A stretch of DNA of 64,000 nt, taken from NCBI GenBank assembly GCA_003168375.1, contig PMSI01000001.1:930001-994000 (forward strand), in the 5' to 3' direction. A model generated the notes under the pieces. It was not told where the DNA came from, did not search any database, and saw only the letters and a list, made by a program, of their open reading frames with translations. The position numbers and the translations under genes were made by a program. The DNA comes from Vulcanimicrobiota bacterium (lineage in GTDB: Bacteria > Vulcanimicrobiota > Vulcanimicrobiia > Vulcanimicrobiales > Vulcanimicrobiaceae). Positions 40,264 to 42,252 of the stretch are shown one piece after another (position 1 is the first letter of the stretch; the number at the start of each line of letters is the position of its first letter).

Positions 40264-40902
40264 ATGGAAGAGTTCGAAGGCGGGCGCCGAGGCGCCCATG
40301 GTCAGCGGCGCCGCGCGGGACGCGCGCTCGACAAGCCGGTACGGTCCGGGCCACCCAGCGCCGGCGCAGGCGCTGAGCGGCGCCCGCGGCGCCCCCTGCC
40401 GCCGCGCGACCGGCCGATGGCCGACGTGGAACCGTCGGTCGAGCCGGAAGAGGCGAAGCCTGCTCGCGCGCTGCTCGAGGAGATCCTGACGAAGATGGGG
40501 CTCGACGACGTCGAGATCGTCTACATCGCCCGCAGCGAAGGTGAGTACTTCGAGGTGCGCGGGCCGCTGCTCGCCTCGCTGATCGGGCGTGAAGGCAAGA
40601 CGCTCGAAGCGCTCAACCTGATCTACAACAACATCATCAACGCGGGCGTGCGCAACAACCGCCGGTACTACACGATCGACGCGGAAGGCTATCGCGCGCG
40701 GCGCGCCGACCAGCTCAAGACGCTCGCGCTGGCAACACTCGAACGCGTCGTGCGCGAGAACAAGCCGGTAAAGCTCGATCCGATGCTGCCCTCGGAACGC
40801 AAGATCGTCCATCTCGCGCTCGCCGATTCGCCGTTCGTCCGGACCGAATCGGAAGGCGTCGAACCCGAGCGGCGGCTCGTCGTTTTTCCCAAGGCCGAGT
40901 AA
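40264..40902 (+). CDS. khpB: RNA-binding protein KhpB/Jag (KH + R3H)
   Basis: 212 aa. A basic Arg/Gly/Pro-rich N-terminal 50 residues replaces the usual Jag-N domain. The KH-like domain (EEILTKMGLDDVEIVYI, LLASLIGREGKTLEALNLI) is about 66-140. The R3H domain (SERKIVHLALADSPFVRTES, ERRLVVFPK) is about 150-208. It binds RNA and is linked to cell elongation and division in Gram-positives, in its usual place after yidC. AAGGA lies 3 bases before the ATG. Its TAA directly abuts mnmE. Confidence 0.93.
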   Translation: MEEFEGGRRGAHGQRRRAGRALDKPVRSGPPSAGAGAERRPRRPLPPRDRPMADVEPSVEPEEAKPARALLEEILTKMGLDDVEIVYIARSEGEYFEVRGPLLASLIGREGKTLEALNLIYNNIINAGVRNNRRYYTIDAEGYRARRADQLKTLALATLERVVRENKPVKLDPMLPSERKIVHLALADSPFVRTESEGVEPERRLVVFPKAE

Positions 40903-42252
40903 ACGGCGGACACGATCGCGGCGATCGCGACGCCGCCCGGGAAGGGTGCGATCGCGATCGTGCGCTGCAGCGGACCCGACGCGCGCGCGATCGCGGCGCG
41001 CGTGTTCAGCAGCCGCGAGCCGTTGCGCGATCGCGTCGTCGCCTACGGCGAGATCGTCGACGCGGAAGGCGTCGTGATCGATCGCGGCCTCGCGCTGGCG
41101 ATGGACGCGCCGCGCACCGTCACGGGCGAGGACGTCGTCGAACTGCACGTGCACGGCAGCCCGGTCGTGGCGCGCGAGACGTTGCGCGCGCTTCTTAATG
41201 CCGGCGCGCGCACGGCCGGCCCCGGCGAGTTCACGCGGCGCGCCTTTCTCAACGGCAAGCTCGATCTCAGCGCGGCCGAAGCGGTCGCGGACGTGATCGA
41301 CGCAGAATCGCGCGCCGCCGCCCGAGCCGCGCAAGCGAATCTCGCCGGCGGCCTGCGTGCCGCGGTCGACGCTGCGCGCACCGCACTGGCCGCGATCCTC
41401 GAGGAGCTGGCCGGCGCGATCGACTATCCCGACGAGGTTCCCGAACCGCCGCGCGAGCGCGTGCGCGCGGCGGTCGACGACGTCGATGCGCAGCTCGCGG
41501 CGCTGATCGGCGACTGGGAGCGCGGGCGTTTCGTGCGCGAGGGCGTCTCGCTCGCGATCGTCGGGCCGCCGAACGCCGGCAAATCGTCGCTGCTGAACGC
41601 GTTGCTCGGGGAAGAGCGCGCGATCGTCTCCGAGATCGCCGGCACGACGCGCGACGTCATCGAGGAGGCGTTCGCCGTCGACGGCGTACGCGTGCGCGTG
41701 CTCGACACGGCGGGTCTGCGCGCGAGCGACGACGCGATCGAGCGGATCGGGATCGACCGTGCGCGCCGCGCGCTCGGCGGTGCCGCCGTCGCGCTCGTCG
41801 TCGTCGACGGTTCGCGCGCGCTCGACGGCGACGCGCACGACGTGCTGCTGCAGACGCGCGGGCGCGACCGGGTCGTGCTGTTCAACAAACGCGATCTCGG
41901 CACGGCGGGCTACGCCGCGCGCGATGCGGCGGAGCGCGACGCACTCTCGGGCTCGGTGTTCGACCCCGCGACGCTGGACGCGGTGCGCGCTGCGATCGCG
42001 CACGCCGGCTGGCAGGGTGAGAGCATCGACCTCGCGCGGCCGCATCTCGCCTCGGCGCGGCAGGCGGACGCGGTCGCGCGCGGGCGCGAGGCGCTCGCCC
42101 ACGCCCGGTCGACGCTGAGCGCCGGGGACCCCGTCGACTTGATCGCGCCGGAGCTCTTCGGGGCGGTCGCCGCGCTGGGTGAGATCACCGGCGCGGCGGC
42201 GACCGAGGCGGTGCTCGACGGCGTGTTCGCGCGGTTCTGCATCGGGAAATGA
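40903..42252 (+). CDS. mnmE: tRNA modification GTPase MnmE, apparent non-AUG (ACG) start
   Basis: About 449 aa. With MnmG it installs cmnm5/nm5 groups on wobble uridine. The conserved start DTIAAIATPPGKGAIAIVRC is encoded immediately after the khpB TAA in the same frame, with no ATG, GTG or TTG before it. ACG at 40903, preceded by AAGG (40891-40894, 8-base spacing), would give (M)ADTIAAIATPPGKG, the exact family length. A GTG at 40960 would remove this strand of the formyl-folate domain. The G domain has GPPNAGKSS, IAGTTRDVI, DTAGLR and NKRD; the C-terminus FCIGK holds the catalytic Cys. Confidence 0.9.
   Translation, partial: TADTIAAIATPPGKGAIAIVRCSGPDARAIAARVFSSREPLRDRVVAYGEIVDAEGVVIDRGLALAMDAPRTVTGEDVVELHVHGSPVVARETLRALLNAGARTAGPGEFTRRAFLNGKLDLSAAEAVADVIDAESRAAARAAQANLAGGLRAAVDAARTALAAILEELAGAIDYPDEVPEPPRERVRAAVDDVDAQLAALIGDWERGRFVREGVSLAIVGPPNAGKSSLLNALLGEERAIVSEIAGTTRDVIEEAFAVDGVRVRVLDTAGLRASDDAIERIGIDRARRALGGAAVALVVVDGSRALDGDAHDVLLQTRGRDRVVLFNKRDLGTAGYAARDAAERDALSGSVFDPATLDAVRAAIAHAGWQGESIDLARPHLASARQADAVARGREALAHARSTLSAGDPVDLIAPELFGAVAALGEITGAAATEAVLDGVFARFCIGK

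Follow-up and report, generated by a model that had tools for sequence, protein, structure and literature searches.

Conserved bacterial housekeeping genes can begin at a codon other than ATG, GTG or TTG, as infC, the gene for IF3, does. The infC start is AUA in Staphylococcus aureus (PMC13009471), and is given as ATT for E. coli and as ATC for Streptomyces (PMC5472188). Such starts are presumed to be of low efficiency and sensitive to IF3, and to be read by the normal initiator tRNA. The second of these papers also describes sigR in Streptomyces, whose non-canonical GTC start is conserved between species and wrongly placed in annotations, and whose protein level was shown experimentally to be held down through IF3; the passages available do not describe sigR as reinitiating from an upstream gene (PMC5472188). 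In termination-reinitiation overlaps, stop and start are adjacent or overlap within a few nucleotides, and the upstream gene is the expected source of ribosomes; the surveyed examples are of the ATGA and TGATG type with canonical starts (PMC6728339, PMC2268962), and extra IF3 reduces reinitiation in E. coli (PMC2268962). A more relaxed form is known from caliciviruses and influenza B, where near- or non-cognate restart codons work and a stop-adjacent position outweighs codon identity, although these systems use eukaryotic ribosomes and have different RNA requirements (reviewed in PMC5972666).

The mnmE gene described here resembles infC in being a conserved housekeeping gene without an ATG, GTG or TTG start. 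However, a purine-rich Shine-Dalgarno-like stretch usually precedes infC, which has a single conserved start codon (ATA in this family) and feeds back on itself, whereas mnmE has a weak Shine-Dalgarno-like stretch, sits directly on a stop codon and varies in its start codon between lineages. It is like sigR in the conservation and misannotation of its start, but its start is predicted from sequence and it is proposed to draw ribosomes from the gene upstream. Literature searches found no published account of start codons in MnmE or in Eremiobacterota.

The window is a 64,000-nucleotide stretch of contig PMSI01000001.1 from a Vulcanimicrobiota bacterium (genome G000). Read directly, the 3' end of khpB and the 5' end of mnmE are CCC AAG GCC GAG TAA (40900-40902) ACG (40903-40905), with 0 nt between the khpB stop and ACG and both genes in the same reading frame. 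The features of the junction are as follows.

40264..40902, plus strand: khpB (jag/eloR), the gene 5' of mnmE; an open reading frame with an R3H domain (PF01424) above cut-off, ending in TAA at 40900-40902.
40891..40894, plus strand: AAGG, a weak Shine-Dalgarno-like sequence within khpB, 8 nt upstream of ACG; G002 and G007 have AAGG too, formed there by the K codon of khpB; putative function.
40903..40905, plus strand: ACG, the proposed mnmE start codon, abutting the khpB stop; TAA-ACG is kept in G000, G002 and G007.
40909..40959, plus strand: the conserved MnmE N-terminal segment DTIAAIATPPGKGAIAI, 5' of the first canonical start, recognized by codon differences and Pfam TrmE_N.
40960..40962, plus strand: GTG, the first canonical start in the mnmE frame; not regarded as the initiation codon because TrmE_N positions 1-16 would be lost.
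40903..42252, plus strand: mnmE (trmE), 449 codons from ACG plus TGA, with matches to TIGR00450, TrmE_N, MnmE_helical and MMR_HSR1.

From position 40903 the codons run ACG GCG GAC ACG ATC GCG GCG ATC GCG ACG CCG CCC GGG AAG GGT GCG ATC GCG ATC GTG, the last being GTG 40960. This is the earliest ATG, GTG or TTG in the mnmE frame; it lies inside the conserved TrmE_N domain, and it is where mechanical calling of open reading frames puts the start. Direct reading thus bears out the preliminary description, which had placed the N-terminal segment between the in-frame khpB TAA and GTG 40960. The upstream protein matches NCBIfam NF041568 with an E-value of 2.1e-36 and a score of 125.8 bits, below the cut-off of 145.

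The mnmE product scores above the curated family cut-off of TIGR00450 (338 bits, cut-off 252.6) and slightly below that of NCBIfam NF003661 (377.1 against 380), and its C-terminus (...FCIGK) carries the CIGK expected of the family. Started at ACG, it contains TrmE_N (residues 4-119), MnmE_helical and MMR_HSR1; its residue 2 aligns with NF003661 profile position 3, and its alignments with three solved MnmE structures (3GEH, 1XZP and 9HIP) begin at residue 3. Because NF003661, TrmE_N and the structures align from residues 2-4, the ACG start gives an MnmE of normal length, as had been claimed for ACG 40903 with its AAGG 8 nt upstream. A start at GTG 40960, which has in its favour that this is the first canonical start in frame, would treat the upstream conservation as incidental and leave DTIAAIATPPGK absent from MnmE. 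However, it would remove 19 residues, including TrmE_N profile positions 1-16, the opening segment that aligns in the solved structures. Across 16 codons, beginning with the T of DTI and ending with the final isoleucine ahead of GTG 40960, eight relatives differ from the window by 0-2 nonsynonymous and 0-5 synonymous changes. Because these differences are mostly synonymous, the codons between ACG and GTG 40960 are translated; the codon pattern shows an N-terminal segment under selection at the protein level, and we consider a start at GTG 40960 highly improbable.

A search of the window's genome found no second mnmE; its other matches to MnmE span the GTPase domain only (residues 214-332), the pattern that Der or another related GTPase would give. 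Elsewhere in the class, genome G044 (L204, G044:C150) carries a second, divergent mnmE copy with 44% identity to that of the window.

Support for ACG as the first codon comes from close relatives. TAA-ACG is also present in two other species of the genus, G002 and G007, whose MnmE proteins are 84% and 80% identical to that of the window. The junctions read GAG TAA ACG GCG GAC in G000, GCA TAA ACG AGC GAT in G002 and GGT TAA ACG CAC GAC in G007; the codons flanking TAA-ACG all differ, and divergence at four-fold sites among the three is 0.32-0.39. A public MAG contig of the G007 sequence, JAQBPK010000013.1, has the same TAA-ACG bases, and a fourth relative, G008, has ACG ACG ACG at the position of the single ACG. 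ACG and ATG differ by a single transition, and the preliminary description had raised the prospect that the genome really has ATG at 40903, the C being a sequencing or assembly error. This is contradicted by an identical ACG in separate species (G002 and G007/JAQBPK010000013.1) beside different neighbouring codons; we rejected sequencing error and give it a negligible probability. Near-cognate codons are frequent by chance in a GC-rich gene, which counts against reading any one ACG as a start. However, ACG 40903 is the best-supported first codon because it is conserved beside variable codons. In other words, the position of the MnmE start at ACG 40903 is well supported, and from its conservation we infer the exact first codon.

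A tree built from the N-terminal part of MnmE, with the first 20 residues omitted, leaves 30 of its 100 inner branches unresolved; in it the window's species, G002, G007 and G008 cluster together (support 81, inner order open). All four have ACG candidates; relatives starting with ATG or GTG fall outside the cluster, and in sister lineages an ATG or GTG is found close to where ACG 40903 lies. The ACG shared by three to four species may represent one inherited event.

Initiation could instead take place slightly downstream, at ACG 40912, which encodes the T of DTI, or at ATC 40915, and MnmE would then lack three to four residues. In favour of this, the two codons are near-cognate, ATC or ATA occurs at the downstream site in some relatives that lack a candidate codon at the junction, and G010 and G003 start directly before the T of DTI. 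However, ACG 40912 is ACC in G007, so that a near-cognate codon is not kept there; ATC 40915 is constrained as isoleucine, making its conservation uninformative; and the spacing from AAGG to either codon would be at least 17 nt. We regard a downstream start as unlikely.

A KhpB-MnmE fusion made by readthrough of the khpB TAA, also raised in the preliminary description, draws on the shared frame of khpB and mnmE here, in G002 and in G007. It can also point to genus g32 (L196-L203), where a glyoxalase/VOC-like open reading frame (Pfam Glyoxalase, 2.8e-6) follows khpB and shares its frame with MnmE, no stop intervening; such an apparent VOC-MnmE fusion suggests that an N-terminal extension is tolerated in the family. 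However, the frame relation differs in the close relatives G008, G003 and G010 and varies across the class: all three relative frames occur among 27 tight non-canonical junctions (14, 8 and 5). A conserved fusion by readthrough or frameshift needs one frame, and is disfavoured because all three are used. No common slippery site is visible, and TAA is the least leaky of the stop codons. We consider readthrough very unlikely, which leaves initiation at ACG as the last standing of the three options first put forward.

The absence of a canonical start extends beyond these species. We surveyed 103 mnmE loci of the class, mostly from uncultured bacteria (the nearest named records are Candidatus Eremiobacterota), and scored a locus as having no canonical start if no ATG, GTG or TTG occurs from the preceding in-frame stop to the invariant TIxAxATPxG motif. 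Such loci number 22 of the 103 and are spread over 13 genera. Among mnmE genes of other phyla there were none in 75 (in 72 a canonical start lies no more than 20 codons away, in three it lies farther away), and controls from the same family gave none in 25 mnmG and 30 murG genes (0/55). The frequency of missing canonical starts exceeds chance by both comparisons (Fisher p 2.6e-6 against mnmE of other phyla and 4.9e-5 against mnmG/murG, relatedness being ignored in each). When loci are divided by whether or not a canonical start lies within 12 codons, parsimony requires at least 23 changes of state, a rough figure since the tree is partly unresolved. The window's mnmE is thus an instance of something that recurs in the family and, against the two control genes, is specific to mnmE: a canonical start lost where khpB adjoins it. 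A comparison of all open reading frames in syntenic stretches with relatives, made for other non-canonical starts, returned mainly shadow-frame noise in this GC-rich DNA. In four relatives (G012, G033, G036 and G044) the junction offers no near-cognate codon that would make a convincing start.

Loss of the canonical start is associated with the spacing between the two genes. Of the 22 loci that have no canonical start at all, 20 have the khpB stop within 34 nt of the anchor, with all three relative frames represented. Where the khpB stop is 20 nt or less from the motif, 24 loci lack and six have a canonical start within 12 codons; where it is more than 20 nt away, such a start is missing from 11 loci and present in 44 (p 1e-7, without regard to relatedness). 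Phylogeny-aware pairs on well-supported branches likewise favour the link to spacing, 4.3 against 0.2, but the seven usable pairs are not enough to reach significance (median p 0.125). Genus g46 illustrates the pattern: its tight junctions have ATA, ATA and GTA, and in sisters whose spacers measure about 125 nt the codons are GTG, ATG and ATG. Among the 14 junctions in the commonest frame, the codon overlapping the stop is ATA, GTA, CTA, TTA or CTG, a list that alone is not evidence because it is partly forced by the overlap.

Separately, two loci, G080 (L162) and G111 (L192), have mnmE without a canonical start though khpB is 127 and 486 nt away. Genera g41 and g47 (L152, L180) encode a protein of about 150 residues with hydrophobic stretches between khpB and mnmE; the one tested had no Pfam match.

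The upstream junction of murG is equally tight in these genomes, often with a 4-nt overlap, yet murG always starts with ATG, GTG or TTG (0/30 lost). We therefore rejected coupling as a sufficient cause of start loss: tight coupling permits the loss and does not cause it, and it leaves the choice of mnmE unexplained because murG keeps its canonical starts. The simplest added condition would be that weak initiation of MnmE is tolerated or even favoured.

We propose that mnmE is initiated by fMet-tRNA at ACG 40903, chiefly by ribosomes that finished translating khpB immediately before, a reading we consider likely. In this mechanism a frame with no canonical start before a conserved, translated N-terminus would open at ACG 40903, which the ordinary initiator fMet-tRNA would read with one mismatch to its CAU anticodon. 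Ribosomes would be supplied by khpB termination, with a weak AAGG contact behind, as zero spacing here and the spacing trend in the class suggest. By precedent, initiation at ACG would be inefficient and probably IF3-sensitive, keeping MnmE low and tied to khpB translation. The locus shares properties with two known classes. As in other genes with non-canonical starts, no ATG, GTG or TTG precedes the conserved N-terminus and the codon is kept across species. Its stop and proposed restart codon lie within the roughly 30 nt of termination-reinitiation (0 nt), but because that restart codon is the non-canonical ACG, and elsewhere ATA, CTG, GTA and similar, we put khpB-mnmE coupling forward as a proposed way of working and do not file it as membership of that class.

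More tentatively, ribosomes at these junctions might restart where the stop codon dictates, the codon found there (ACG, ATA, GTA, CTA, TTA or CTG) being nearly irrelevant. The khpB-mnmE junction would then be a bacterial counterpart of relaxed-codon viral termination-reinitiation, holding MnmE low and tied to khpB; we regard this as possible, though doubtful. Unlike the viral systems, the junction yielded no structured element: there was no Rfam match, and folding was unremarkable (z -0.8 to -1.4). Repeated loss of the start at one junction amounts to a natural experiment on the start-codon needs of reinitiating bacterial ribosomes. Gene finders, which assume ATG, GTG or TTG, will shorten MnmE in these genomes.

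The initiation machinery appears ordinary. infC starts with ATA followed by GCN in 37 of 37 genomes (L287-L317, L319-L324; e.g. G000:C4:1487754-1488251), usually after a purine-rich Shine-Dalgarno-like stretch and in many cases without an alternative in-frame canonical start, which points to a family-wide AUA start for IF3. IF3 discrimination is probably intact because infC keeps ATA, a start type known in other bacteria, and the mnmE codons would be among those that IF3 opposes. The initiator tRNA gene is standard: it has a C1-A72 mismatch, an anticodon stem with three G-C pairs (GGG/CCC) and the anticodon CAU. We found no special initiator tRNA reading ACG: there is one ordinary initiator, and neither CGU tRNA has initiator features. 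Besides its dispersed tRNA genes, the window's genome carries an array of 28 tRNA genes in about 3.8 kb (G000:C7:181500-187500, L355 1-6001), many of them with low covariance-model scores.
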